Below, piece by piece: positions 15,274 through 62,273 of a stretch of 64,000 nucleotides of DNA. The notes beneath the pieces are model-generated. The model ran no database searches. It saw only the letters and a list, made by a program, of their open reading frames with translations, and was not told the origin of the DNA. Source of the DNA: Chloranthus sessilifolius (Eukaryota > Streptophyta > Magnoliopsida > Chloranthales > Chloranthaceae). Position numbers and translations under genes: made by a program. How positions within the stretch are numbered: position 1 is the stretch's first letter; the number at the start of each line of letters is the position of its first letter. The stretch covers positions 10,382,088-10,446,087 of the forward strand of contig CM037593.1 in the NCBI GenBank assembly GCA_021018995.1, written 5' to 3'.

Positions 15274-18200
15274 TCAGTAATAGAAGATTATATAAAAACT
15301 AGCAAGGCGCTGAAACCGTATACAATCACAACATAGATCAGAAACATAAGACCAAAGACTAAGGACAACAAACGCTACCCACAACCCACATCTAGCGGCC
15401 AAACAGGCCCCCTTAGCCCGGCTCCCAAGGGAAAATAACGGTTCGGTCCCCCTGAGCACCACGTTCTCCCCATAAGGTAACGAGCTCCAAGACCGCCCTA
15501 ATAACCATTTCGACAGGTTTGGTTTTACCTTCGAAGACTCTGCGATTCCTCTCACACCAAATGCACCAGAAAGCGGCGAACATCGCTGCCATCCAAGCTC
15601 CCCTAATGTCTCCCTTCCCTGTGTCAGCATGAATGCATACGGTGACTGAGGCATGACCCAGGATACCCCGAAGGCTCTAAGAATGGCTCCCCATACCTCG
15701 AAAGCCACACGACAATGAAGGAGGAGATGAGCAGTGGACTCCACCCCGTCAGAACACATAGCACAAGCCGTAGGGACATCGATTCCCCTCCGAATCAACT
15801 GGTCCCTGGTAAGAATTTTGTCCTTACAAACAGTCCAAATGAAAAATCTGATCTTGAGAGGAAAAGGTTCCTTCCATAACCATCTACCCCATCTACCGTG
15901 GCGATGCCCATCGATATAAGGCTTTGACACCAAACTTCTCCCCCCGGCTCAAGTCCCAAATTCTCTGATCAGCCCTTAGAGGGTTCCGTTGAGCCGCGTG
16001 AAGCCTACTCAACAACTCCTCATAGTTCGCCCTCTCACCGTCCCTAAGACGTCTTCTGAGGACCACATCCCAGGTACATCTATCACTGACAAAGCTCACA
16101 AATTCATCAATCATACCACCCTGATTCAACGAAAGGGTGTAGATTGCCGGGAACGTAACTCTGAGCGGACTCACATCCAACCACGAGTCTTCCTAGAAAC
16201 GAATACGGGACCCACAACCCCAGCTGTATCGCACCCCTCTTGCCCACATCTCCCAGGTACGTGAGATATCTCTCCACCACGACGAAGTATTCCTGTGGGT
16301 AGACACTTCTATCCCCCAACTCCCCCCTGAAAGGCCATACTTGTCGCACAAGACCACCCACCAGAGGCAACCTCTCTCCTCCACCCTTTCCGCTCTCCAA
16401 ATCCACTTCCCGAGCATCGCCAAATTTGTTATCCTGAGACTCCGAATCCCCAACCATCCGTTAGCGATTGGCAGCTGGCAAGTGTCCCAATTGACTAGGT
16501 GAACCCGCCTATTCAGACCAGCACCATCCCGCAAAAACGACCTTTGAATGCGTTCCAATCTATCAATAATTCTAGCGGGGCACCTATACATGGAGAAGCA
16601 GAAGATGGGGATCGAAGAGAGCACCGCCTTAACCAAGACCAACCTCCCCCCAGTACTGAGCAGCCTGCCTTTCCAAGCCGACAATCGTAGCTCAAATCTC
16701 TGCACAACCGGTAGCCAATCACGGCATGTGGGCTTTCTGATCCCAAGCGGCATGCCCAAGTATCTGATGGGCAACCCCTCTATGCGGCACCCAACCAAAC
16801 CAGCCAAGGAAGTCAGCACCTGATTCTCCACCCTTATACCCGATATTGTGGATTTGAGGAGATTAACCTGTTGGCCCGACACCGCCTCGTACACTGAGAG
16901 CACATCAGCCATTACACTTAATTCCGTCCCATCAGCCTTCCCAAACAAAATCGTATCGTCCGCATACTGAAGGTGCGTAATAAACCTCCCCTGGTCGCCA
17001 ACTCTGATGCCAGTAAGCATACCCAATCCCCGAGCCCGCCAGATCAATCCAGATAAAGTCTCCCCCACCATATTGAAAAGAAAGGGGGATAACGGATCAC
17101 CCTGCCTGAGGCCCCTTGAACTCTTGAAATACCCCGCCGCAGTCCCATTAATCATTACCGAGAACCATGCGGAAGAAAAGCACCCGCGCATCCATTTCCT
17201 CCAAGTAGCACCAAAACCTAACCTTCTAAGCATATAGTCTAAACACTCTCAACTAACCCGGTCATAAGCCTTCTCCATGTCCACCTTCCAGACCACAACC
17301 GGCCTACGAAGAGCATAGGCCGAATGGATGGTCTCGTTAGCAACTATCACAAGGTCCGTCAGCTGCCTCCCACGGACATAAGCCCCCTGATAGTCGGAGA
17401 TGATAGAGCCCATTACCCACTTAAGTCTATTAGCCAGCACCTTCGCGATAATCTTGTAAGCGCAATTGATCAGACTAATCGGACGGTAATCGGAGATGTT
17501 TTCGGCCCCATGAATCTTGGGGATGAGGGTAATAAATGTAGAATTTAGAGCTCTCCCAATAAAACCCGAAGAGTGAAAGTCGTGAAAAACCTCCATCAGA
17601 TCCGCCTTAATACACTCCCAGAACGCGCGATAAAATTCCATAGTAAACCCATCTGGCCCCGGTGATTTATTGCTCCCACCACTCCTGATTGCGGTCCACA
17701 CTTCCTCTTCCGTAAATGAGCTTTCCAACCCCCTACTAACCTCGTCGGAGATAGACGCAAACTGAAGCTCGTCCAAACTAGGCCTCGGACGCCCCTCATC
17801 CGTGTACAATCGTTCATAAAAATCCACAATACTATCCCGCACCTCCTCGTGTCCCGAGTACGCCACTCCATCCACTATAATGTTCCCCAAGTACTTTGCT
17901 TTGTTGCGGCCATTAGCAACCGCATGGAAATACTTCGTATTGGCGTCCCCCTCTTTGAACCACCTAGCCTTCGCTTTCTGCATCCAACAAAGTTCCTCAG
18001 CCCTACATCTCTCATTGAACTCCGCCTTAGCTTGCATTCTAGCCTCCCTCTCCTCCGTCGTGAGAGTTCTGATTTCCTCCAAGTTATCAAACCCCTTCAA
18101 CTTCAATAGCAACTCCTCTTTTCGAACGTGCACCATCCCATACACCTCCCTATTCCACGTCTTGATTCTATCCTTCGCCCGTCGCAGCTTATTGATAAAA

Positions 18201-18972
18201 CGATAGGCAACCGTCCCATCGGGCACCGGTTCCGCCCACCACCCCCTAACCTTCTCCCGAAAAGCGTCGTCCAACAACCACATATTCTCAAATTGGAAAG
18301 GGGACGGTCCCCTTCCCCGGGTCTCACAAGTAAGAACAATAGGCCGGTGATCCGAAATGGCACGCGCAAAAACTTCCAATCTGGCACCCGGAAAGCACTC
18401 GAACCACTCGGTAGTGCAAAGAAACCTATCCAACCGGCTGAGAGACGGCGAGTCCTGTAAACTAGACCACGTAAATCTGGCCCCCATCAACGGTATGTCA
18501 ATCAGACCCCAGTCCGCAATGAAGGAGTTGAAATCTCGCATGACCCGAAGGTTGGCCGGACCCCCCTGCTTCTCGAAGTCCCACCGAATGGCATTGCAAT
18601 TTCCCGCGAAGCAAATTGGGAAATCCCATCGACCCGCCAAAGCGTTCATTTCAAACCAAAACTCCCCCTCTCGATTAAACCTTTGGTCCATAAATACCAT
18701 AAAAACTCCAAACTTTCCTCGATCCTTTGTCCTGGACCACAGGGCGAAAAACCCCAATTCCTCATCCACCTTATCGAACAAACCTGACGACCAAGCAACC
18801 AGTATCCCACCAGATGCGCCAATAGAGTCAATACCGATCCAGTCCCAAGTCCCCCCCCCCCCCCCAAATCGATGTAACCTTCCTTTCATCACAACTTCCC
18901 CACTTGGTTTCTTAGAGCGACCGCTTCAAATAGATCACTAATGCCTCTAACATTCCAAGATAACATCTTCAT
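15274..18972 (-). pseudogene. LINE ORF2: endonuclease, reverse transcriptase, zf-RVT
   Basis: The protein would nick target DNA and reverse-transcribe the LINE RNA at the site. The start at 18972-18970 gives MKMLSWNVRGIS, the classic endonuclease N-terminus. A C/G homopolymer near 18855 marks a frameshift and a deletion within the endonuclease. The endonuclease C-terminus is clear (SRLDRFLCT, ISDHRPIVL). Reverse transcriptase motifs are SPGPDGFTMEF, ISLINCAYKIIAKVLANRL, GLRQGDPLSPFLF and the catalytic YADD at 16966-16955. A zinc-binding zf-RVT region (CAMCSDGVESTAHLLLHC) lies near 15800-15750. Defects are an in-frame TGA at 17251-17249, a TAG at 16195-16193 and a frameshift near 15900-15930. 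Otherwise it is collinear, so the copy is fairly young but dead. Confidence 0.9.
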
Positions 18973-19006
18973 AAGGAAACTAATTAGCACCCTCCCAAAC
19001 CGAGAC

Positions 19007-21288
19007 CTACCAGTCAAAAACTCCCCTCCCATTCGACATACCCCAGTGAAGACGAGCCAACTCCCGCGATCCGCCCCGTCGCTTGCGCTTACAAGACTGT
19101 CGGCTAGTAATAATCGATCGGAACACCTCCCGAAGCTCTGCCTGAGAACCCTTGAAGGTCATCCCGAGGTTACGCCCAACCTCGATCAGCCGATCTATCT
19201 CCACCACCAATTCTGAATCCAGGCCGTCGCCACACTCAAATTGATGAGGAAGAGGTAGACTTTGCATTCCATCCATCGTTAGACACCTTGGGTCGTCGTT
19301 TCCGTGTTGTACGCCCCCCATATGCAAAGACCACTTTCGGTCCCTGTATACCCCACCTCTTCCTCATCATAGACGACCAACTCGCCCTCCCCAGCTGAGT
19401 CTCTGCGCCTCTGAAGGTGGTCTGAGAAACTCCCGGTAGACCCATCCCGCTTCAGCGACTCGTCAAATCCTACAGATGGTCTATCCCCCTCAGCAACAAT
19501 CTGGGAAAAAACCAGCATTCCCGGGTTTGTCCAAGGGCGAGGACTAGATCTCAGTAACCCGGTCCGGATCGGGTTGCCAGTAGGCCCACTCAGCTGGCCC
19601 GTTCTAAAAGGTCGAAACGCCCCACCCCATGAAACCCCCACCGGGCCTTGAATAGACCGTACGACCCGCCTAGCGAAAACCTTCCTCTGGTAGCCCGCGT
19701 CGGACCCGCTAGCCATCGAAGTCAGTGGAGGCCACGTGTCCTCGCCACGCGTCCCACTCCCCATAACCTGTTTAAATACCCTCCCACGCAAGCCCCCGCA
19801 GTCAAAACCCCTCTCCGTATACGGAGACCTTCCAGGTTCTTCTGGTGTCAGTCCACGTGTCACCTTCTTATACTTTCCCGCTCCTCGATGCCACAGCGTC
19901 GGTCTTCTCCTTCTAATGTACACCTTCGCAGGCTTTAAGCAACCAGTGGAAGCAGACCTCGCAGGAAGGCCGACCATTTCGAGCACCATCGGATCCCAAG
20001 TACGATCTCCTTCCTTGTCCGACACCGCAGTCAGACCCCTTTCCTTACCTACCCTCAGTTGTTGCAAGTGTACGAAAATAGGGTCGTAGTACGATTCGAT
20101 CAAGACCGTAGATCGCCCCGAGGCCGAAAACGTGTCGTTCGGAGCACCGACCGGCGGCAGACCATCAGAAACCTCCTCGAAACCCTCAAGGGAGCACCAA
20201 GCAACGCCAGACCATCAGAAACCTCCTCGGAGCCCCGACCAACTTCGCACCGCCTAACACCTCCTCCAAACCCTTTGCCGAGACCGAAAGAGCGAAACCG
20301 GCTCTGTCCTCCGTCGGCGAGGTCGGAGAGATGAACATGCCCAAGTCGTCGACCGGTAGATCCTCGACAATAGCCCTCCCCAGCCGGGCGAGCTCTACCA
20401 AGAGCTGGCAGCAGCGGCCATCAATCCGTACTTCGACGACGCGAGGAACCGTATCAATCCTCTCGACCGCCACCAGGATACGAACATGGGAGGTGAACCA
20501 GAGGTCCGCCAATCGCCGATCGACCCGGATAAAGCGACCGCATTGGTGTCCGATCCACCGGAACACCTCCGGGGACCACGCGTGGAGCGGGAGACCGAAG
20601 ATGTTTAGCCACACCCTCTCCTCCTCTTCGCAAAATTGAACCTCTCCCACGCGAGGTTCCCACCAACGGCAAACCGTCGGGCAACCGTCAATGAAGAAAC
20701 TCTTTTTGAGACATACCGCAGCGGCCTCCTTCTCCGACCCGAAGCGCAAGAGGAACGAAGCAGGGGAAATAGAAGAGACCATGGGCCTTTTTGAAAAACT
20801 CCAATTGTAGTTAATCCATCTGTGGATGTTGTAAAGAGCTAGTGTATCACTGTTAGTATCCATGACCACCCAATAAAGTCTCAAGTTAACGGCTAGAGAT
20901 CGAATGTGGGGAGAAACTACTTCGAGAACCCCGGAGCCTTCCGACTTATCCATCCTCACAGGCCCCCTGAGAGGCGCTAGACTTGGCTCCCGACCCACCC
21001 CACTGGCAAATAAGTCTGGTGGGTTGAAAATAGGATCCAACGAGGGCAGAGAGAGCGGTCTGTTCTTCCTAGTGGCAATCGACCACCCTCCTTAATATCA
21101 CATATCTGCGACCCGCCGAGCACCGTCTGCCTCTCATTCCTCGAAACTGGAATTCGATCGTCTGCGGATGCAACAAATTTCCCTTGCGAGCGGGAGGCGT
21201 CACAGCCACGTCGATGGCACGTTGACCGACGCCGGAAATTGACATTGCGACACCTACAGCAGATCCAGTCGCCGATCCTAAGCACCAC
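19007..21288 (-). pseudogene. LINE ORF1: RanBP2-type zinc finger, DUF4283, basic C-terminus
   Basis: ORF1 proteins of plant LINEs bind the element RNA. Three blocks are visible. First is an N-terminal finger (21273-21201, see separate entry). Second is a DUF4283 domain in the 21040-20186 frame, with WINYNWSFSKRP, RFGSEKEAA and WLNIFGLPLHAWSPEVF. Third is a long Gly/Arg/Ser-rich segment (20103-19279) leading to a C-terminal piece (19327-19007) with LIEVGRNLGMTFKGS and a basic KRKRRGG. Frameshifts lie near 21060, between 20190 and 20100, and near 19300. I saw no CCHC zinc knuckle, which usually follows DUF4283. Confidence 0.78.
21201..21273 (-). other. RanBP2-type zinc finger in LINE ORF1
   Basis: The residues run GDWICCRC...NVNFRRRSTC...GC. 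They fit the RanBP2 pattern W-x-C-x2-C-x3-N-x6-C-x2-C, except that the fourth Cys position is Arg (TGC to CGC would explain it); another Cys lies two residues later. This finger type binds single-stranded RNA or ubiquitin in host proteins. It is not a standard part of plant LINE ORF1 as I know it. Confidence 0.65.
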
Positions 21289-36510: not shown

Positions 36511-37240
36511 TTCGATCTTAAAATTGAGATCCAAACCCTACATTTGAGGGAGTAATGACCTGAACTGCGAGGGAAACTCTAATTTTGGGACATGATTCAG
36601 ATCCGATAAATCTGATTGTTATGAGTCATTGTAGATGAATATTTCGGGTGTCGAAGTCCGGAATCATTCTTTGGGTTCGTCATTGCAACCCGTACGAGTA
36701 TCGAATTTATGGTTGCAATCCGAGTGTACTAAGAATTATGCGAGGGATTGTATCCACGTAGCTTAATTATCTCTAAGTACACAAGAAATTGGGTACATAT
36801 CGTAACGCGTAATCCCAAATTGCAACCCTAATCATACTTAGGTAAGAACCGTAACTCTTATCCTAAGCGTGTTACCTTTAGGTAAGGGCCGTAACTTTTA
36901 TTCTAAGCGTATCAAGCGGGACTTTTTCCTCCCGTAAACTCTAAATAAAAAAAGAGGGAACAGAAAGAATCTCGGAGATACCTTAAGGTCTCTTGCAAGA
37001 GGATCAAAGTCAGAGAGGTTTTCGGCAGGGCTCTCACATCAGAATTTTCGCATCTCAAATAATGAGCAGATATGCTATTTATAGATTTATGGTAGCAGTT
37101 ATGGGAAGTTATAATCTTATAGTTTCCGCAAAAGTTTCACAAAAATCAAGGGTTGTGAGGGCTGCTTGGGTCTTAGCCTTTATGCGGATTGATAAAAGAT
37201 TTTTCTCTAAATATCTGGCCGACGCAAGTGTTTATTTGCT
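36511..37240. other. Intergenic, short direct repeats
   Basis: ACTTAGGTAAGNNCCGTAACT occurs twice (36836 and 36882), the second copy with TTTA for ACTTA. No gene recognised. Confidence 0.4.
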
Positions 37241-37245
37241 TAAGC

Positions 37246-38082
37246 GGAGAAAATGGAGGACTCATGTTCGAAGAAGATGACCTACGCAAGTACGACCTAC
37301 ACAGGCACAACCTATGTGGGTATGACCTATGTAGGCACAACCTACGCAGGCACGACCTATGCAAGTACGACCTATGCAGGCACGACCTACGCAGGCACGA
37401 CCTATGCAAGTACGACCTACGCAGGAACGACCTACGTGGACCATATTTAGAGAGAAAAAAAGAAGGGAGAGAAAGAAGGAGATACGAAAGAGAAAATAGG
37501 GAGAAAGAGAGAAAAAAAGAAATGATATATCTTCCGTAAAGACACATTTTTGTGTCTTCTATTTTCTCTTATCCTTTATTCATCTCTTCCAGAAGAAAAG
37601 ACACATTTTTTGTGTCTTCTATTTTCTCCAATCATTTATTATATAATATTTGTGTATGACCTACACAAATATTATATAATAAATGATTGGAGAAAATGGA
37701 GGACTCATGTTCGAAAAAGATGACCTACGCAAGTACGACCTACACAGACAACCTATGCAGGTACGACCTACGCAGACACGACCTACGCAAGTACGACATA
37801 TGTAGGCACGACCTACACAGGCACGACCTATGCAAGTACGACCTACGCAGGCACGACCTACGTGGACCATATTTTGAGAGAAAAAAAGAAGGGAGAGAAA
37901 GAAGGAGATACGAGAGAGAAAATAGGGAGAAAGAGAAAAAAAGAAATGATATATCTTCCATAGGAAGAGACATTTTTGTGTCTTCTATTTTCTCTTATCC
38001 TTTATTCATCTCTTCCAGAAGAAAAGACACATTTTTTTGTCTTCTATTTTCTCCAATCATTTATTATATAATATTTGTGTAT
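37246..38082. repeat. Duplicated block with 15-bp minisatellite and 36-bp palindrome
   Basis: Two direct copies (37246-37656 and 37690-38082) share the same order: GGAGAAAATGGAGGACTCAT, a 15-bp minisatellite (CGACCTACGCAGGCA-like, 37279-37440 and 37724-37865), a purine-rich tract, and ATTTTCTCCAATCATTTA at the end. At their junction, 37621-37656 and 37662-37697 form a perfect 36-bp stem with loop TGACC. Open frames across the minisatellite on both strands are only five-residue repeats. Confidence 0.9.
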
Positions 38083-38489
38083 CTAGAGATAAGATATCCA
38101 TAAAACTTGGGGACACAAATACTGAGTGTATACAGATCTATATTTGTATATTTATTCAAGAAAAAGATACAAAACTTTTATGTCTACACTTAGCAAATGA
38201 CGGTGTCACTCTAGGGCTGCTATTATTGATTGGAGGGATTACTTGGTGGCATTTTGAAGTTGTGAGCTGCCAAGCCTTTTCTTTTGTGTTCTCATATATG
38301 TTTGGTTTAATCTTTTCAATATAATAAAATCTACATGTTTCAAACACAGTTCCTTAAATAAAAATAATAGAGGCCTAAAAGTCATAATGCTTTACAACGG
38401 ATATTATTTATGAAGAACAGATTATTGATTTAATAAATCGAACTATTGAACTATCCTTAGAACTTGAATAAACTCGAAGGGACAGTTTG

Positions 38490-48868: not shown

Positions 48869-51370
48869 TCATTTAAATATTTCCCTTCTCGCATTTTTAG
48901 CTGCAAAATCGCTGATTAAAGTTGTATAGTCAATATTATCCACCATATCATTTTCAATGGATAACACAGCTAATCCATTTAATCGTTCTTGTGACATCGT
49001 TGACCGAAGATATGATTTGATCAACTTCAGTTTTGAAAAACTTCTTTCACCAGAGGCAACTGTAACTGGTATAGTCAACAGTATCCTATAAGCAATCCAT
49101 ACATTCGGGTAACAACCATCCATTTGTTTCAAATAGTTCAACACTTCAATCGGTGTTTTTACTTCTTTTGGCAAAGTATCTTTCAAGACTTTCAATTCTG
49201 AAGATAAATCTAGCCCATCAATATCAATATGCTCTTCATGTTTGAGAACATGCTCAAGATTTGCGCAAAAAGTCTTCAAACATTCATCACTAACCGAACA
49301 TAGCCTTTTCAAATCAAACAAAAGCCCAAAATGCTACTCATATGTTTTAAATTGTTCAAATCTATGCTCAAGTGATGAAAGGCCTTGATTAACAATATAT
49401 GTGAAGTAATTAATTCTGAAAGATTCTTCAACTGATTGTGACACGTCTTCACTTGCATTTTCATCAAACTGTTTCTTTCTTCGAACAATGCGCTTTTCAC
49501 GAAATATAGGCTCGATCCCCATTTCAATCGCAACTTCATTAGCTTCAATTAGGGCCTCCGTGAATTCATTTTCCCTATATCTTTTAAAATAGGTAATGAG
49601 TCCTTCTAATTGCTGAATAGCAATACTAATATTTATACTTTCTTGTTGAAGAAACTTGCTAACAGTATTAATAGCAAACAATACATTGTGCCAAACAATC
49701 ATAGCTACTAAGAACTCATAACTCTCAAGTTCATTTGTTGCGAGAGATTGTGCTTCACTAGAACTTTTGCCATCATTTTCACAGGTAGACTCTGCTAGGA
49801 TAAGTAGAGCATCTCTTATTTCTGGAGCTTGATATCTTATTGCTTTAACACTTTGAATACGACTCACCCAACGTGTTTGTGATAGCCCCTTAACTGTGAA
49901 ACCTTTCACATTATCCATTAAAAATTGTCATCGCTTTGGAGAGGATGAAAACAATATGTATATATGTTGTACCACCCCGAAAAATGTTAAAGCTTTAGGA
50001 CAAGAGTTCGCCATATCAAAAAGTGCAAGGTTTAGACTATGACAACCACATGGCGTGTAGAATGCTTTAGGATTTATTTCAAGTAATTTTTTCTGTACAC
50101 CTTTGTGTTTTCCTTTCATATTAGAGCCATTGTCATATCCTTGTCCTCTTATATCATCAATATTGAGTCCAAGAGTCTTCAAAACTCCTACAATAACATC
50201 AAAAAGCCCCTGCCCAGAAGTATCATTGACTTTCAAGAATTCTAGAAAGAACTCTTTAACTTGTATTTGACTTGTAGACTCATCAACACATCGTATAACA
50301 AGAGACATTTGCTCTTTATGGCTAATATCTGGACTGCAATCAAGTATTATTGAATAATATTTCGCTTCCTTAATTTTCTGAATAAATTTTCTTTTGATCG
50401 CATCTCCCATCATTTGTATCAACTCATTCTGAATTTTGTGACTTAGATAATGATAATGGATTTCTTTGTTTTGAACTCGTCGAAGGTGTTCTTGCATTAT
50501 TGGATCAAATTCGGCTATCATTTCAACTATACTAAAAAAGATTTCATTCCTCTCTTGATAAATCTTTTCATTATCCCCTTGAAATGCTATATTCTTAGAT
50601 GCAAGAGTTTTTACGATAGAAACAATCCTTATTAATATTTGTTTCCAATACTCCTCTTTTTTAATTTTTTCTTGGTCCTCTTTATCAATTGTCTCATTCT
50701 TCCCCAATCTCAAACTCAACTCAATCCATTTGCTCATACTGGTAATATGCTCATTAGTCCTTTCGTGACGTTTCAATCTTTCGCTGAGATTCATCCAATC
50801 ATTCAATCCTTCTTTAGCCAATTGAGTAGTTATGCCTTCTATGAAAAATAATTTGCAACTGAAACAATAAACTCTCTGGCTTGTATATGAATATACTAAC
50901 AATTTCCGATCCTTCTTTTCTCCATTTGTTAATTGTCTCATGTAATGGGAAGACGAGAATTTCCTACAATGAATATTTTTCAAAAAATTATCATTATTAT
51001 CTCTCAAAGGACCCTTCTCCACTAAGAAGTCTCTAAGACTCTGTTGGGCATTGTTCCAATTGGCCGGATCATAAATATTTAAAGGCCAATATTATTTATA
51101 GTCATTCTCATTTATATTTTCTTCTTCATTGTCATCTTCCCTTTCATTCATCAAGTCTTTGTCTTCATCTTCTTCATTTTTGTCGTCTTCTTCATTATTG
51201 TTCAAGTCTTTGAGCTCATGTTCTTCTTCTTCATTAGTATTCACAATTTCTGTTTGTTTACTACTTCCAAAAAAAATGTAAATAGCTCCTGCTTGAGACT
51301 GAAGAAGCTTTTCTATCTTTTGCTTCTTCTTTCTTTTCTCAGCTCCAGACGGATAACTTCTATTAGACAT
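48869..51370 (-). pseudogene. hAT transposase (DUF4371 / zinc-finger type), three in-frame stops
   Basis: The enzyme excises and reinserts the element in the nucleus. One uninterrupted frame of 834 codons runs from ATG 51370 to TAA 48869, broken only by TAA (51094-51092), TGA (49930-49928) and TAG (49336-49334), with no frameshift. Order: a Lys-rich N-terminus and an acidic Glu/Asp/Asn stretch (codons 1-92); a zinc-finger region with VYCFSCKLFF and a later His-containing HERTNEH (about 165-215); the DUF4371 RNase H-like core with IILDCSPDISH and IRGQGYDNGSNMKG (about 330-420), which includes two likely catalytic Asp; and PCGCHSLNLAL. The C-terminal dimerisation region has VTVASGERSFSKLKLIKSYL (about 772-791). 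Length and order are normal for this clade. The few single-base lesions suggest recent death. Confidence 0.92.
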
Positions 51371-54060: not shown

Positions 54061-55419
54061 TTTTTATTCCTCGTCACATTATCTCCAAAAAATGTCTCTT
54101 GAATCCTATGGTATTCTTATATGAATGAAAAAGATTGAACCATTAGAGATAAAACTTTCTCCATTGAAAAGGGGATGAATCCCTCTAACATATTTCCCCG
54201 CTTGAGCAGATAACTGCAGGGAACTAACCTTCCAAACTCCCTTAGTTTCATTAACTAACTGTGAGTCTATTTATGGATGATATTTCAAACTTAATTCTAA
54301 TCACACCCAACTTCTAACTATAATCCTAGTATAATTCTAAGGATATAAAACTTCCTAAATTCCCACATTCCTAAATATATCCTAACACCATCATTAATTC
54401 AAAAATAACAACTTTAACTCCAATAATGAATTAAGCTAGAACTGCTGAAACCGAGATTTATCCTCAACAAACATGCAAAAGAAAATAAAAAATGCATATT
54501 GAGAATTCAAATTTACCAGAAATAACAGATTAACAGTCATGTCACAAAATCTGCAAGTTGAACCTTCTATTGTTTTCTCTTTTACCACCTTAAATCAGAA
54601 ACAGCAGTAACACAAATCAATCAATTCAATTCTCAATCTCCAATTTGATTATTTTCAGAAGAATAACAAATTCCAAAAGAAAATCATGCATCGAGAAGTT
54701 GATGTTATAAGAAAAAGCATCGCTAATTTTAATTAGAGAAACGCAATTCTTTATCTTCATATTCCATGAAATAACCAAAAATCTACACATAATAGAAACA
54801 GTTTTCTATCACTATCATCACCAAAACTTGCTTAAAAATAATAATAAATCAAATTAATAATTAAAAACCCTAAGACACTCTCCATGCAACAAGAACAACT
54901 CAGGCCAAAAAAATAAAAAATTGAAAACACCAATACACCAGAGAAGAATGTCGAATCAAATCATAAAAATACCTAATATAACTCCAAAAGATCCAGAGAG
55001 AGAAAGCCAAACCAAACGAACTCAGCTACAGAAAAATCGATTTGGAGAAGAAATAATAAAGTTGAGTAAAGAGAAGCAGAGACTAGCCAAGAGAGAGAGA
55101 GAGAGAAAGGAGAATAGGGGAGCTGGGGAGGAGGCGATTGAGATTTGGGACTTGGGAGATAGCTAGGGTTTTAATTATTTTAACTTTTCTTTTTGTTTAA
55201 GTGGGTGGTGGACCGTGGACCGACCCAACCTAGCAACCTGTTAACTGGGCCCTTGTCAACTGGACTTGGGCCCCTCTAAATTTTTTAGCTCATATAAAAG
55301 CCTATTAAAAAAAAAAAATCAGATTTGGAAGCCCTTAAAATTCAGGGGCTCGAGGCAGCCGCCTCTTGGGCCTTGGTCCAGGGCCGGTTCTGTGGATGTA
55401 AAAAGTATAATGAAAAAAT

Positions 55420-56018
55420 TGTTGGCTCTTAATCAAAATAGCGGATCTAAGGTAAGCATCTAACTAGCTTCCCCAACATGTACACGGCCGAAACATTGTA
55501 AAGCATATTAAACTGGAGTGCATGATCACAAAGATCCATGCAGAGCTCCTAAAAGGAAACACAATAGATGACTCTCAAAATTATATATGCTTTATATATT
55601 ATCAAACATCCATGCAGAGCTCCTAAAAGGAAACACAATAGATGACTCTCAAAATTATATATGCTTTATATATTATCAAATATCCATGCAGAGCTCCTAA
55701 AAGGAAACACAATAGATGACTCTCAAAATTATATATGCTTTATATATTATCAAACACTTATAATAAGCTTCCGGTTCAAAAACTTTTTCTTCACTTTTCA
55801 CTTGTATTTTTTGATTTGATGGTGTGCCTATATAACATAAACAAAAGACCATTTTATAGATTACTAGGACCTAAACTTCATACATCACAATTAATGCAGC
55901 TTTTACACTTTTCAAGACACTCATTAACATCACGCACAATTCAAAGTGACTCTTAGTAATCTACCCAAACCACTTCGGTTAACTCAAAACATTTAATTTT
56001 GATTTACAACTTCCAACA
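55420..56018 (-). repeat. LTR A, with 74-bp triplication
   Basis: Reverse-complemented it starts TGTTGGAAGTTG and ends GAGCCAACA. A 74-bp block beginning TCCATGCAGAGCTCC occurs three times (55535, 55609, 55683) where the other LTRs have one. This accounts for its 599-bp length against about 480 bp. Confidence 0.9.
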
Positions 56019-56027
56019 CTTCTCCTT

Positions 56028-56425
56028 AAATCAAAATTATGCATTGCTTCGTGCTTTACCTTTAATCAGCTACTTCAAGTTCTTCACTTCTTCAAGAGTC
56101 TTGATTTGGTTTTCATGCTCGTGCACTTTCACTTATGCGCCAATCAAATGCTCATAGTTTGCATCAATAAATTTTATATTGTATACTTCAAGAAGATATG
56201 AAGTGCAGCGAACACGACATTCTCGACAGCGTCCTTCTTGGATGATGCTTCATTTTCATCAAACTCATGATAAAGATCATTTCTACCAATAGTGACAAAA
56301 CCCTTGAATATTGGTCTGTGATCTGAACCAATTTTCCACACTTCATAAATTGTGGTTTTGAGCTTCAATTCATTAATCGCATCTTGTAACATTTTTTTGA
56401 ATGGAGCTGTGTTTGCGAACACCAG
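56028..56425 (-). pseudogene. Retrotransposon-borne dsRNA-binding domain ORF, copy 1
   Basis: The minus-strand frame reads INELKLKTTIYEVWKIGSDH, then PIFKGFVTIGRNDLYHEF and ASSKKDAVENVVFAAL. This is the alpha-beta-beta-beta-alpha double-stranded-RNA-binding fold: the G-x-x-H-x-P-x-F loop and the SSKKDA motif that contacts RNA are both there. A frameshift near 56180 separates it from a coiled, Lys/Glu-rich C-terminal tail (about 45 residues). It lies between LTR A and LTR B and fills the internal region. It is unlike any Copia gag I know. Confidence 0.82.
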
Positions 56426-56885
56426 GTGGACTCACTGTGGACTTCACTCGTCCAAAAAATAATGATGGATTTCACTCTTCCAAAACATAGGAGAAACATA
56501 GTTCTCACATAGTTCGGATGCTTCCGGCTCAACTCAACAGAGAGGGACTCTTTTCGTCGCCAAACTCTAATACACCACACTTTGTGCAACATAAACCACT
56601 AAACCCTTAAGAGAATTTCACTCGTTTAAAAATGTCCCTAAACAACATATTTTTTTATTTCTCTCAATGATCAACACGCTCAACCTTGACGGTTTGATAC
56701 TGATGTTGGCTCATAACAAGCCACATCTAAGATCGTCCAAGCTCTGATACCACTGTTCCTAAATTAAGCCATATCCTTTATACCAATTTGCTCTTAATCA
56801 AGCCATGTCTCAGATCGTCAATCTCTGATATCACTGTTGGCTCATAAAACAAGCCATATCCAAGATCATCAAGCTTTGATACAAA
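56426..56885 (-). other. Leader and repeated primer-site units
   Basis: The leader shares GTTGAGTTGAGCCGGAAGCA and GGACGAGTGAAGTCCA with the other copies. Nearest LTR B are three tandem-like units of about 50-60 bp, each with a Met-tRNA primer-site-like GGTATCAGAG and a GAGCCAACA LTR-end-like sequence. Confidence 0.65.
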
Positions 56886-57370
56886 TGTTGGCTTACAAAA
56901 ATAAGCCAGCCGATCTGAGGTAAGCATCTAGCTAGCTTCCCCAACATGTAAACAGCGAAAACATTGTAAAGCATATTAAATCGAAGATGCATGATCACAA
57001 AGATCCATGCAAAGCTTTTAAAAGAAAACACAATAGATGACTCTCAAAACTATATGCTTTATATATTATCAAACATTTACAATAAGCTTCGGTTTACAAA
57101 CTCTTTCTTCACTTTTCACTTGTACTTCTTGATTTGATGGTGTGTCTACATGACATAGACAAAAGACCCTCTTATAGACTATTAGAATCTAAATTTAGTA
57201 CATCACAATTAATGCACATTTTACACTTTTCAAGACACTCATTAACATCACACATAATTCAAAATGAATCTAACTTAATTGACACACTTAACTAGGAACA
57301 ACTCTTAATAATCTACTCATAACACTTCGGTTAACTCAAAACATTTACTTTTGATTTACAACTTCCAACA
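56886..57370 (-). repeat. LTR B
   Basis: A 485-bp LTR, the 5' LTR of the 1,951-bp non-autonomous element 55420-57370 and, by sharing, the 3' LTR of the pol-containing remnant to its right (polypurine tract at 57371-57379). Confidence 0.85.
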
Positions 57371-57906
57371 CTTCTCCTTAAATAAAATATTACGCATTGC
57401 TTTTTCAAGTTGTGCAATCCAAGACCTACTTTACTTGGGCTGCTTGTATTCCAACACTCCCTCTCAAACCCAAGTTTCGAAGTTACTCCAAGTAAAGTCT
57501 TCAATCCTTGAAATGTTGGAAATTTTAAAGGCTTCGTAAAAATGTCCGTAACTTGTTCTTTGGACTTGCAATAAATGAGCTTGACTTTATTCTTCTTCAC
57601 TTGATTTCGGATAAAATGACACTTTGTGTCAATATGTTTGCTTTGACCATGAGACACAAGAATCTTTGCTAAAGAAATGGCTTATCTATTATCAACATAG
57701 ATCGTTACTGGTTTATTTGTAGAGTGATGCAACTCCTTTAATATATTCTTCAACCAGATAGCTTGACAAACACATACTGTAGGAGCTATATATTTAGCTT
57801 CACATGATGAGTAAGCAACAACATTTTGCTTTTTTGATGACCACGAGACTGCAGCTGAACCAACATTGAAAACATATTTTTTGAATGGGGCTGTGTTTGC
57901 AGACAC
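57371..57906 (-). pseudogene. Copia RNase H fused to the dsRNA-binding leader
   Basis: Reading leftward: ANTAPFKK, the usual start of the dsRNA-binding ORF, joins directly to YVFNVGSAAVSWSSKKQNVV of Copia RNase H. Then come CEAKYIAP, AIWLKNILKELHH, HIDTKCHFIRNQV and TDIFTKPLKF. Gag, protease, integrase and reverse transcriptase are deleted. The frame is broken in two (57906-57682 and 57657-57331). Confidence 0.82.
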
Positions 57907-58150
57907 CAGGCGGACTCACTGTAGAATTTATAGTACTGCACATGAAACAAACCATCAAACAAAACATTGACCATATCTGTGTTTGCGAACACCAAGCAAA
58001 CTCATTATGGACTTCACTCATCTAAAAGAAAATGATGGACTTCACTCGTCCAAAACATAGGAGAAACTTAGTTCTCACCATGGGTCAAAATATCATTCGA
58101 TACTGATACGTATCGTCCGATATGTATCGGTTTTGGACCTCACCGAAAAG
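57907..58150. other. Leader (minus) and inversion junction
   Basis: Minus-strand leader sequence with an internal partial duplication (TGTTTGCGAACACCA / TGTTTGCAGACACCA). It ends near 58080, where an unrelated CGATACTGATACGTATCG stretch separates it from plus-strand leader starting near 58145. Confidence 0.6.
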
Positions 58151-59330
58151 AGTCACTCTATGTTGAGTTGAGCCGGAAGTATCCGAGCTATGTGAGAGCT
58201 ATGTTTCTCCTATGTTTTGGACGAGTGAAGTTCACAGAGTTCGCATGGTATTCGCAAACACAAGTAAGGTCAATGTTTTGTTTGATGATTTGTTTCATGT
58301 GCAGTACTATGGCGACTGACCCTGTAGTTGTCAAAGCCACATTCAAAAAAATGTTATAAGATGCGGTTGATGAATTGAAGCTTAAAACCCCAATTTACAA
58401 AGTGTGGAAAATTGATTGAGATCATAGACTAGTATTCAAGGCTTCTCTGACTATTGACAGAAATGACCGACATTGGAAAGATATCATTTTCCTTGGGATA
58501 GCGGTAAAGCAAACAGAGGGAGGAATTTTTATCTCACAAGAAAAGTATGTAAAAGAAACTCTTGGAAAATTCAATATGAACAATTGTAATTCAGCAAGCA
58601 CACCTATGGAAGTGGGTTTGAAGCTACAGAAGGAAGAACAAGGCGATTCAGTGGATTCTACACTCTTCAAAAGTTTGGTTGGAAGTCTTAGATATTTAAC
58701 AGTCATTTGACCCGACATTGCTCACAGTGTTGAAATAATCAGCAGATTCATGGATGCACCAAAACACAGTCACTTCTTGGGTGCTAAAAGGGTTTTCCAA
58801 TACATCAATGGTACAATTGATCATGGTTTGTTTTATAAGCCTACTAATGATTTTTATCTTGTAGGATTCACAGATAGTGACTTTAGTGGAGATCTTGATG
58901 ACAAAAAAAGTACATCAGGATATGTTTTCAATATTGGTTCAACTGCAGTCTCGTGGTCATAAAAAAAGCATAATGTTGCTCTCTCATCATGCAAAGCTGA
59001 ATATATAGCTACTACAACAAGTGTTTGTCAAGCTATCTGGTTGAAGTATATATTAAAGGAGTTGCATCACTCTACAAATCAACCAGTAACGATCTATGTT
59101 GATAATAAATCAGCCATTTCTTTAGCAAAGAATCTTGTTTCTCAAGGTCAAAGCAAACATATTGATACAAAGTGTCATTTTATCCGAGATCAAGTGAAGA
59201 AGAATGAAGTCAAGCGCATCTATTGTAAGTTCGAAAAACAAGTTGCGGACATCTTTATGAAGCCTTTAAAGATTCAAACATTTCAAGGATTGAAGACTTA
59301 GAGTAACTTCGAAACTTGGGTTTGAGAGGG
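58151..59330 (+). pseudogene. Chimera: dsRNA-binding start joined to Copia RT/RNase H
   Basis: Plus-strand leader, then an ATG at 58311 and a broken first half of the dsRNA-binding domain (IYKVWKI, FKASLTIDRND). Near 58475 this passes into the end of Copia reverse transcriptase (IIFLGIAVKQTEGGIFISQ) and RNase H (SLVGSLRYL, GFTDSDFSGD, CKAEYIATT, AIWLKYILKELHH, HIDTKCHFIRDQV, ADIFMKPLKI). Stops include TAA at about 58357, TGA near 58708 and TAA near 58961. The junction point differs from the one at 57860, so it arose independently. Confidence 0.82.
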
Positions 59331-59429
59331 AGTGTTAGAATACAAACCCAAGTAAAGTGTTCGGGTTGCACAACTTGAAAAACTAAAGATGAATCGCGCA
59401 ACAATGCATAATTTTGATTTAAGGAGAAG

Positions 59430-59907
59430 TGTTGGAAGTTGTAAATCAAAATTAAATGTTTTGAGTTAACCGAAGTGTTATGGGTAGATTATTAAGAGTC
59501 ATTCCTAGTCAAGTGTGTCAATTAAGTTAGATTCATTTTAAATTATGTGTGATGTTAATAAGTGTCTTGAAAAGTGTACAAGGTTCATTAATTGTGATGT
59601 ACTAAGTTTAGGTTCTAGTAGTCTATAAAAGAGTATTTTGTCTATATCATATAGACACACCATCAAATCAAAAAGTACAAGTGAAAAGTGAAGAAAGAGT
59701 TTGTGAACTGAAGCTTATTGTAAGTGCTTGATATGAAGCATATAGTTTTGAGAGTCATCTATTGTGTTTCCTTTTAGGAGCTCTGCATGGATCTCCTAGA
59801 TCATGCATCTCCGGTTTAATATGTTTTACAATGTTTCTGCTGTGTATATGTTGGGGAAGCTAGTTAGATGCTTCACTCAGATCGACTCGCTTATTTTTGA
59901 GCCAACA
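59430..59907 (+). repeat. LTR C
   Basis: A 478-bp LTR preceded by AAGGAGAAG (polypurine tract) and followed by primer site TTGGTATCAAGG. It is flanked by pol remnant on the left and a dsRNA-binding unit on the right, so it is shared by two elements in tandem. Confidence 0.87.
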
Positions 59908-60230
59908 TTGGTATCAAGGATTGATGATCTTGGATATGGCTTGTTTTATGAGCCAACAGTGGTATCAGAGATTGATGATCTTGGATATGGCTTGTTTTTT
60001 AAGCCAACATTGTCAAAAAAATGGGTGACATTTGTCTGGGGACATTTTTAAATTGGTGAAATTCTCTTAAGGGTTTAGTGGTTTATATTGCACCAAGTGT
60101 GGTGTATTAGAGTTTGGCGACGAAAAGAGTCTCTCTTTGTTGAGTTGAGCCGAAGCATCCGAGCTATGTGAGAACTATGTTTTGGACGAGTGAAGTCCAC
60201 AGTGAGTCCCCCCTGGTGTTCGCAAACACA
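59908..60230 (+). other. Primer-site units and leader
   Basis: TTGGTATCAAGG then GTGGTATCAGAG about 52 bp later, each followed by GATTGATGATCTTGGATATG and a ...AGCCAACA end, form a tandem repeat of the primer-site region. The leader then matches the other copies. Confidence 0.7.
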
Positions 60231-60625
60231 GCCCTATTCAAAAAAATGTCACAAGATGCGATTGATGAATTGAAGCTCAAAACCCCAATTTACAAAGTGT
60301 GGAAAATTGGTTCAGATCACAAACCAATATTTAAGGCTTCTGTCACTAACCAATATTTAAAGCTTCTGTCACTATTGGCAGAAATGATCTTTATCATGAG
60401 TTTGATGGAAATAAAACATCATCCAAGGATGCTGTTGAGAATGTCGTGTTTGCTGCACTTCATTATCTTCTTGAAGTATGCAATATAAAATTTATTGATG
60501 CAAACTATGAGCATCTGATTGATGCACAAGTCAAAGTGCACGAGCATAAAAGCCAGATCAAGACTCTTGAAGAAGTGAAGAACTTGAAGAAGTTGATTAA
60601 AGATGAAGCACTAAGCAATGCGTAA
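60231..60625 (+). pseudogene. Retrotransposon-borne dsRNA-binding domain ORF, copy 2
   Basis: ATG at 60246 starts the ORF: AIDELKLKTPIYKVWKIGSD, PIFKASVT, and after the break RNDLYHEFDGNK, SSKDAVENVVFAALHYLLE and a charged tail with HEHKSQIKTLEEVKNLKKL, stop at 60623. A 26-bp tandem duplication (60324 and 60350) shifts the frame inside the domain. Allowing for it, length is about 117 codons: one domain of about 65 residues and a coiled tail of about 50. Confidence 0.82.
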
Positions 60626-60643
60626 TTTTGATTTAAGGAGAAG

Positions 60644-61109
60644 TGTTGGAAGTTGTAAATTAAAATTAAATGTTTTGAGTTAACCGAAGTGTTAAGGGTA
60701 GATTACTAATACTCATTCCTAGTTAAGTGTGCCAATTAAGTTAGATTCATTTTGAATTGTGTGTGATGTTAATGAGTGTCTTGAAAAGTGTAAAAGGTGC
60801 ATTAATTGTGATGTACTAAGTTTAGGTCCTAGTAGTCCATAAAAATGTCTTTTGTCTATGTCATATAGACGCACCATCAAATCAAGAAGTACAAGTGAAA
60901 AGTGAAGAAAAAGTTTGTGAACCGGAAGCTTATCATAAGTGTTTGATAATATATAAAACATATATAGTTTTGAGAGTCATCTATTGTGTTTCCTTTTATG
61001 AGCTCTGCATGGATCTTTGCGATCATGCTTCTCCGATTTAATATGCTTTACAATGTTTCCGCTGTGTACATTTTGGGGAAGCTAGTTAAATGCTTACCTT
61101 AGATTTACT
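60644..61109 (+). repeat. LTR D, truncated at its 3' end
   Basis: Preceded by the polypurine tract and starting TGTTGGAAGTTG. It breaks off after GCTTACCTTAGATTTACTC, where minus-strand dsRNA-binding sequence starts. This is one of the inversion or nesting junctions. Confidence 0.8.
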
Positions 61110-61375
61110 CATAGTTTGTATCAAGAAAACTTATATTGGATACTTCAGGAAGATAATGAAGTGCAGCGAACACGACATTCTCGACAACGTTCTTCTTGGA
61201 TGATGCTCAATTTCCATCAAACTTATGATAAAGATCATTTCTGCCAATAGTGACAAAAGCCTTGAATATTGGTCTGTGATTTGAACCAAATTTTCACACT
61301 TTGTAAATTGGGGTTTTGAGCTTCAATTCATCGATCGCATCTTGCAATATTTTTTTGAATGGGGTTGTGTTTGCA
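61110..61375 (-). pseudogene. Retrotransposon-borne dsRNA-binding domain ORF, copy 3
   Basis: Minus-strand copy with the same blocks (DAIDELKLKTPIYK, then FKAFVTIGRNDLYH and the NVVENVVFAALHYL helix). It is broken by an early TGA where the other copies read KVWKIG, by a stop or frameshift near the SSK motif, and by loss of the tail. Confidence 0.75.
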
Positions 61376-61782
61376 AACACTAGGCTGACTCACTGTGGAC
61401 TTCACTCGTCGGAAAAACAATGATGGACTTCACTTGTCCAAAACATAGGAGAAACATAGTTCTCACATTGCTCGGATGCTTCCGGCTCAACTCAACAGAG
61501 AGTGGCTCTTTTTGTCGCCAAACTCTAATACACCACACTTTGTGCAGCATAAATCACTAAACCCTTTAGGGAATTTCACCCGTTTAAAAATGTCCCCAGA
61601 CAACATATTTTTTATTTCTCTCAATGATCAAACACGCTCAACCTTGACGGTTTGATACTGCTATAGGCTCATAACAAGCCACATCTAAGATTGGCCAAGC
61701 TCTGATACCACTGTTGGTTCCAAAATTAAGCCATATCTTTTATACCAATTTGCTATGAGTCAAGCCATATCTCTAACACCAA
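61376..61782 (-). other. Leader and primer-site units of the outer element
   Basis: Same leader blocks as above, then GCTCTGATACCACTGTTGG (reverse complement of primer site plus LTR-end-like CCAACA) and two more degenerate units before LTR E. Confidence 0.65.
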
Positions 61783-62268
61783 TATTGGCTCATAATCAAA
61801 TGAGTCGATCAGAGGTAAGCATATAACTAGCTTCCCCAACATGTACACTGCGGAAACATTGTAAATCATCTTAAACCAGAGATGCATGATCACAAAGATC
61901 CATGCAGAGCTCCTAAAAGGAAACACATTAGATGACTCTAAAAATTATATATGCTTTATGTATTATCAAACACTTACAATAGGCTTCCGGTTCACAAACT
62001 TTTTCTTCACTTTTCACTTGTACTTCTTAATTTGATGGTGTGTCTATATGACATAGACAAAAGACTCTTTTATAGACTACTAGGACCTAAACTTAGTACA
62101 TCACAATTAATGCACCTTTTATACTTTTCAAGACACTCGTTAACGTTACACACAATTCAAAATGAATCTAACTTAATTGACACACTTAACTAGGAATGAC
62201 TCTTAGTAATCTACCCATAACACTTCGGTTAACTCAAAACATTTAATTTTGATTTACAACTTCCAACA
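61783..62268 (-). repeat. LTR E (5' LTR of the outer element)
   Basis: A 486-bp LTR ending at 62268 against TSD AAAAT. The inner end reads TATTGGCTC, i.e. the terminal TG has become TA. Confidence 0.82.
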
Positions 62269-62273
62269 AAAAT

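Follow-up and report, generated by a model that had tools for sequence, protein, structure and literature searches.

The locus considered here raises the question of whether a short LTR retrotransposon can carry a double-stranded RNA-binding domain (dsRBD) as its only gene and, if so, how such an element is copied. Most non-autonomous LTR elements are regarded either as passengers without genes or as vehicles for host fragments picked up by chance. The unit in question lies at positions 55420-57370 of a 64,000-nucleotide stretch of Chloranthus sessilifolius DNA (the window), where it had been predicted from the letters alone to be a complete element.

The flagged unit is one end of a composite insertion

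Read on the minus strand, the flagged unit has the order LTR, primer site, leader, dsRBD ORF, polypurine tract and LTR. The original prediction is borne out in part. The ~865 bp between the repeats agree with the ~867-bp interior that was described, the primer site is present as a perfect copy of TGGTATCAGAGC, which we take to be the primer-site motif, at 56741-56752 (minus strand, amid tandem primer-site-like repeats), and the polypurine stretch tttaaggagaag (56019-56030, minus strand) adjoins one of the LTRs. The GSDHRPIF and SSKKDA motifs are both found in the ORF at 56174-56422 (minus strand). This ORF encodes an 82-aa dsRBD that is open from a GTG, but the charged tail that had been assigned to it is out of frame owing to a 1-bp deletion. 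It also lacks the start codon of its siblings, which sits in a 72-nt block that is missing from the flagged copy.

The claim that this unit constitutes one complete element did not hold. There are indeed repeats at 55420-56018 (LTR A, minus strand, lengthened by a triplicated ~74-80-bp segment at 55529-55756) and 56886-57370 (LTR B, minus strand), but they are not mutual closest relatives, as LTR A and LTR B rank 5 and 7 for each other in a comparison against 32 LTR copies. The outer side of LTR B adjoins a Copia pol fragment and not host DNA. A single AAAAT target duplication (55415-55419 and 62269-62273) encloses 55420-62268, not 55420-57370, and directly flanks the outer ends of LTR A and of a distal repeat, LTR E; the chance agreement of two random 5-mers of the window is 0.0015. 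The flagged unit alone thus shows neither a target duplication nor LTR pairing, and we rejected it as a separate insertion. It is instead one end of an insertion of 6,849 bp (~6.85 kb).

This composite is built from parts in both orientations. It contains minus-strand LTRs A, B and E and plus-strand LTRs C and D, five in all, along with three dsRBD interiors, two dsRBD 5' fragments and two fragments of Copia pol. None of the inner LTRs has a target duplication of its own, and all five are roughly equidistant (0.87-0.93 pairwise identity), with A and B not clearly paired. Adjacent to LTR B is a minus-strand Copia pol 3' fragment (57373-57882) comprising the RNase H end, the Copia polypurine tract and the U3 start, which is joined to the 3' tail of the dsRBD element, followed by a pol-fused minus-strand piece with leader, part of the 72-nt block and a dsRBD 5' fragment (57890-58078). 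On the plus strand there is a second pol-fused piece (58144-58466) with leader, 72-nt block including the start codon and a dsRBD 5' half interrupted by two in-frame stops, and then a second Copia pol fragment (58469-59385), LTR C (59430-59907), an interior (59908-60641) and LTR D (60644-61104), which is truncated at its 3' end. The dsRBD ORF of this C-D interior (60227-60622) is disrupted by a 26-nt duplication. The remaining dsRBD interior, besides those within A-B and C-D, is a minus-strand copy (61108-61784) with two in-frame stops that is truncated at LTR D and lies beside LTR E (61785-62268, minus strand).

The 72-nt block (58267-58338) is present in most mapped units of the family and cleanly absent from the three window interiors. 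Because it starts with GT and ends with AG, its loss may possibly reflect splicing, or it may be a simple deletion. Elsewhere in the window, three adjoining open stretches contain pieces of hAT-type transposase (48869-51091, minus strand; DUF4371 E 6.4e-18, Dimer_Tnp_hAT E 1.4e-21). There is also a LINE-like element with long open stretches (15274-21091, minus strand; RVT_1 E 4.4e-11 and 1.7e-10), and ORFs of low complexity in which an Arg/Ser/Tyr/Leu/His unit is repeated occur on both strands at 37173-38103.

A genome-wide family of short LTR elements shares the dsRBD ORF

A search of the 2.17-Gb assembly (32 contigs) with the flagged unit returned at least 149 matches on 14 contigs, which is a lower bound since 40 of 143 candidates were scored, and a search with the ORF protein returned 72 matches, with all 91 candidates scored. 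Twenty match clusters were fetched and mapped. A one-off insertion would have refuted the original prediction, but in many additional copies the ORF again lies between LTRs, with target duplications around some of them, and there exists a short LTR retrotransposon family in which the dsRBD is the only recognised ORF. Its layout is LTR-leader-dsRBD ORF-LTR, in all about 1.6-2.2 kb, and each LTR measures roughly 0.4-0.5 kb. Two-LTR elements include L011, L012, L013, L014, L015, L018, L020 and L028, while tandem arrays with common LTRs occur at L010, L017 and L027, and partial copies were also mapped. Two further loci, L019 and L023 (3047-5864), have inverted units side by side, those of L023 within one perfect ATCCG duplication. 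Transcripts of the inverted loci (the window, L019 and L023) would fold back into double-stranded RNA. Two match groups on one contig (C4:167772873-167776052 and C4:167990481-167993660), ~218 kb apart, have the same match order and spacing and look like a segmental duplication.

The family has the features of an LTR retrotransposon, namely TG..CA paired LTRs, a primer site, a polypurine tract and a short target duplication. Perfect 5-bp target duplications were found at 8 of 21 loci surveyed (the window, the diverged copy L060 and 19 others, with L019 left out). Six of these were detected by script (AAAAT in the window, GGTTT at L020, ATCCG at L023, AAACT at the solo LTR L026, GAAAA at L028 and ATTCT at L060) and two, at loci with an altered LTR end, were read by eye (GTGTC at L011, CTTAT at L022). 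By eye, L012 and L014 agree at four of five duplication bases, and no target duplication was seen at 11 of the 21 loci. We dismissed as chance a candidate at L015 (offset 361, not at the LTR end) and a 4-bp candidate at L009. Ten two-LTR insertions, one of which, L023, is itself a composite, were compared for LTR pairing. In seven of them each LTR is the other's nearest neighbour, with K2P distances of 0.034-0.123; the exceptions are L012, L014 and L028. With the plant LTR substitution rate of 1.3e-8, the youngest pair (L011, K2P 0.034) would be ~1.3 million years old, a value to be taken as an estimate only. The primer-site motif is present with at most one mismatch in 11 of 14 5' ends examined (exceptions L022, L028 and L060); in a chance control, 2 of 1000 shuffles had at most one mismatch.

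These elements appear to lack genes for their own copying. When the Copia pol query from the window was compared with the 20 clusters, it matched in all 20 only over its last ~40-60 nt, the tail that it has in common with the dsRBD element. Since no cluster contains this query beyond the shared tail and the interiors are too short for gag-pol, we regard the family as TRIM-like; the absence of pol in the clusters was judged with this one query. No autonomous element with the family LTR was identified among the loci examined. One same-strand pair of full LTR matches 7.9 kb apart (C3:8018848-8027208), with a leader piece near the second, could hide an autonomous element.

The ORF encodes a plant DRB-like domain

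Sibling ORFs start within the 72-nt block and encode ~132 aa, with a plant DRB-like dsRBD followed by a tail that, by eye, looks like a coiled coil. Four of 30 units (L011, L016, one unit of L027, and L028) are open in register from the ATG, this count excluding three short ORF units. Open frames are also found in L012 and L021, which begin with ATA, and in L025, which is shifted over a short stretch close to its start; the three units of the L010 array all have an identical 185-nt deletion in the ORF. In the diverged copy L060 the frame is open, and this copy has its ATTCT duplication and paired LTRs.

The Pfam dsrm model gave the flagged ORF itself a weak match (E 0.035, 15.1 bits, cut-off 23), but its sibling at L028 scored above the cut-off (27.6 bits, E 4.3e-6). 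Six of seven genomic ORFs match at E<=0.0054, L028 being the best. Of the eight ORFs scored, L028 is the one above the cut-off; L027 reaches 22.9 bits, four others 17.7-19.3 and the window ORF is lowest of these, while no dsrm match was returned in this search for the open ORF of L016. In PDB, all four sequence matches of the flagged ORF at E<=10 are plant DRB proteins, headed by HYL1 dsRBD1 (E 0.0026), and plant DRB proteins also rank first in PDB searches with family sequences. In the PDB profile search, three of six matches align to the tail region and are non-DRB, one being a fragment of a spike protein and the other two designed PPR chains. We considered and rejected the possibility that the dsRBD is part of a gag, as there is no gag-like match and the Pfam and PDB matches point to dsRBDs. 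Viral contig scans with the window ORF and with alignment A2 produced 23 and 168 pattern stretches, respectively, with no relatives among them.

The origin of the domain was addressed by comparison with the host genome, which has 32 dsrm matches, 30 of which were fetched as host loci. Against ORF pieces of these 30 loci the element ORF scores 13.8-24.5 bits (best L033), and neither the ORF nor the leader has a meaningful DNA-level match to them. Four diverged protein matches, out of the 72, were also fetched, and all four carry family LTR, leader or block sequence. With weak host scores, no DNA match and family sequence in the diverged copies, no recent donor was found among the loci compared, which rejects or at least weakens a recent capture of a host gene.

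The signal of selection on the ORF is mixed

Variants shared among the 30 units comprise 40 synonymous, 128 non-synonymous, 9 stop and 7 unclassified changes, with a synonymous share close to the neutral expectation of 0.21-0.29 and nearly even codon positions. Comparison among nine young copies gives a pooled dN/dS of 0.77, and comparison with L060 one of 0.61. When six young copies are set against L060, in-frame omega is 0.60 (interval 0.40-0.93), only a little lower than the out-of-frame controls of 0.72 and 0.78, and among these six copies in-frame omega is 0.72, which is not below the out-of-frame values of 0.40 and 0.69. Between L013 and L060 the dsRBD is 74% identical without an indel. 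Identity is lower in the tail (65%), the block (62%), the LTRs (58-61%) and the leader (54%). Within the young subfamily, the dsRBD, leader and LTR are about equally diverged, and neither shared variants, omega nor segment identities give a sign of purifying selection there. Constraint in the past with decay now is a possible reading of these values, although they do not amount to proof.

A Copia-dsRBD chimera points to a candidate helper

The plus-strand pol fragment in the window is truncated and of Copia type (RVT_2 E 2.9e-7, 30.8 bits, just below the 31.6 cut-off), and its genome matches belong to an abundant Copia family at ~87-91% identity. With 40 of 478 candidates scored, 40 of 41 Copia match rows stop at or before query position 917, and the window's own row is the only scored one that runs into the LTR of the dsRBD element. 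The Copia matches stop where the 3' end of the dsRBD element itself begins. Two Copia copies have a common 3' end that is unlike the dsRBD LTR, yet, after a purine-rich stretch, it opens with the same TGTTGGAA. In both arms of the window the switch from Copia to the dsRBD tail falls, by eye, at CTTGAARAA, a stretch present in both parents. That the Copia matches end at the dsRBD 3' end suggests template switching with a co-packaged Copia RNA, and mobilisation in trans. A reverse transcription that jumped between co-packaged RNAs would be the simplest account of the chimera, as inferred from this one locus.

Discussion

We consider it likely that these observations share one explanation, in which a TRIM-like dsRBD family is mobilised in trans by Copia and the window is a template-switched composite. 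This account starts from what is directly observed, that is, the architecture, copy number, target duplications, LTR pairing and chimeric junctions. A non-autonomous TRIM-like LTR family carrying a ~132-aa DRB-type dsRBD protein as its only recognised gene would be mobilised in trans, most likely by the abundant Ty1/Copia family, with which its RNA would be co-packaged. Family cDNAs in both orientations would then have been joined to each other and to a Copia pol piece, most likely by template switching before integration. We infer that the switching occurred during reverse transcription and not through later rearrangement, and the joined product would have integrated at one site.

Two other histories of the locus need to be weighed against template switching. 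The composite might have formed after insertion, by nested insertions, inversions or unequal recombination, or it might be an assembly error. Tandem units with common LTRs do exist at L010, L017 and L027, and recombination between neighbours can build arrays, but one AAAAT duplication encloses the whole block while its inner LTRs lack their own, the five LTRs are about equidistant, and the pol arms meet the dsRBD tail at a short shared stretch. The presence at L023 of a second composite, with inverted parts inside one perfect duplication, argues in the same direction, and we regard a post-insertion origin as rather unlikely. It is also conceivable that the short elements arose by deletion from a full-length Copia element in which the dsRBD was an extra ORF upstream of gag-pol. 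In the window, pol does follow each of the two dsRBD 5' fragments in the same orientation, plant LTR elements with additional 5' ORFs have been described (PMC11728184), and there is one LTR pair 7.9 kb apart. Against this, among the scored rows (40 of 478 candidates) the window's is the only one in which the Copia family that donated pol enters the dsRBD tail or LTR. The 3' end of that family differs in sequence, and this pol was seen in 0 of 20 fetched clusters, which makes a deletion origin distinctly improbable.

What the protein does for a trans-mobilised family is a separate matter, and here a pure passenger has a chance that we put only slightly below even. A DRB-like fragment would have been captured once by a TRIM-like element and copied without a role, such that its conservation reflects shared ancestry. 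The near-neutral synonymous fraction of shared variants in the 30 units, the 26 of 30 units that are not fully open in register, the about equal divergence of dsRBD, leader and LTR in the young subfamily and the common 185-nt deletion in three L010 units all fit such a history. It accounts less well for the 74% identity of the L013 and L060 dsRBDs without an indel, which is above that of leader, block, tail and LTRs, and for a frame that is still open in the diverged L060. At the other extreme, the protein could be active now, by binding element double-stranded RNA, suppressing DCL/DRB silencing or tethering the RNA to helper particles. The plant DRB-like domain, the several open frames (among them L011 with its young LTR pair) and the fold-back RNA that the inverted composites would yield are consistent with present activity, but given the weak selection signal and the many broken units we think it unlikely. 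The original prediction named protection of the element's RNA, interference with DRB/DICER-like silencing and replacement of gag as candidate roles, on which the selection results are mixed. Our best guess is that the protein helped the lineage earlier, either by binding element double-stranded RNA or by countering silencing, and that most current copies are decaying baggage. The more specific proposal, that the lineage long kept the dsRBD and its coiled-coil-like tail because the protein shields the RNA from DCL/DRB silencing or tethers it to helper particles, may apply but is doubtful.

The family is a TRIM-like element with a resident gene, tandem arrays included. It resembles the TRIM and TA-TRIM elements of a published survey (PMC4717578) in being short, in lacking gag and pol, and in having 5-bp duplications and tandem arrays that share LTRs. 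The survey searched for LTRs of 30-500 bp separated by 30-2,000 bp, and the family falls within the upper limits (LTR <=500 bp, <=2,000 bp between LTRs), with LTRs above 500 bp, due to duplications, at window LTR A, L017 and L028. It also reports gene fragments in 30 elements of 7 TRIM subfamilies. The gene-carrying TRIMs that it describes are >70% identical to host genes, whereas here there is no close donor among the loci compared, and the dsRBD is common to the family, a diverged subfamily copy included.

A second parallel is provided by Tekay elements, in which an extra LTR-retrotransposon ORF has been linked to dsRNA-binding (DRBM) proteins with a possible modulation of silencing (PMC11728184). 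As reported there, that resemblance is structural, with the maize and sorghum proteins resembling one soybean protein and the sunflower protein being without a match. Tekay elements are Gypsy elements with gag-pol, in contrast to the present family where the dsRBD is the only recognised ORF and is detectable from sequence. Complex LTR insertions described in Triticeae are likewise composites with common LTRs that are attributed to abnormal template switching (PMC1950507), but the composite described here additionally has parts in inverted orientation and a piece of pol from another family. Among cellular proteins, the plant DRB proteins (HYL1/DRB1, DRB2, DRB3 and DRB4) are the top-ranked PDB sequence relatives, and host exons score up to 24.5 bits. 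The relationship is nevertheless distant (13.8-24.5 bits, no meaningful DNA match), and the element protein has one dsRBD plus the coiled-coil-like tail seen by eye. Searches of open-licence PMC full text listed no paper on an LTR element whose sole ORF is a dsRBD.

Through the Copia-dsRBD chimera a candidate helper can be proposed, which is seldom possible for TRIMs, as a related larger element is known for only 11 of 289 TRIM subfamilies in the survey (PMC4717578). Should the doubtful proposal of a long-kept shielding or tethering protein be correct, this would be a minimal element that takes every copying enzyme from others and contributes only an RNA-binding factor of its own. A multi-copy family with a common dsRNA-binding ORF that is open in a diverged subfamily provides a test case for a silencing or packaging factor supplied by the parasite itself.
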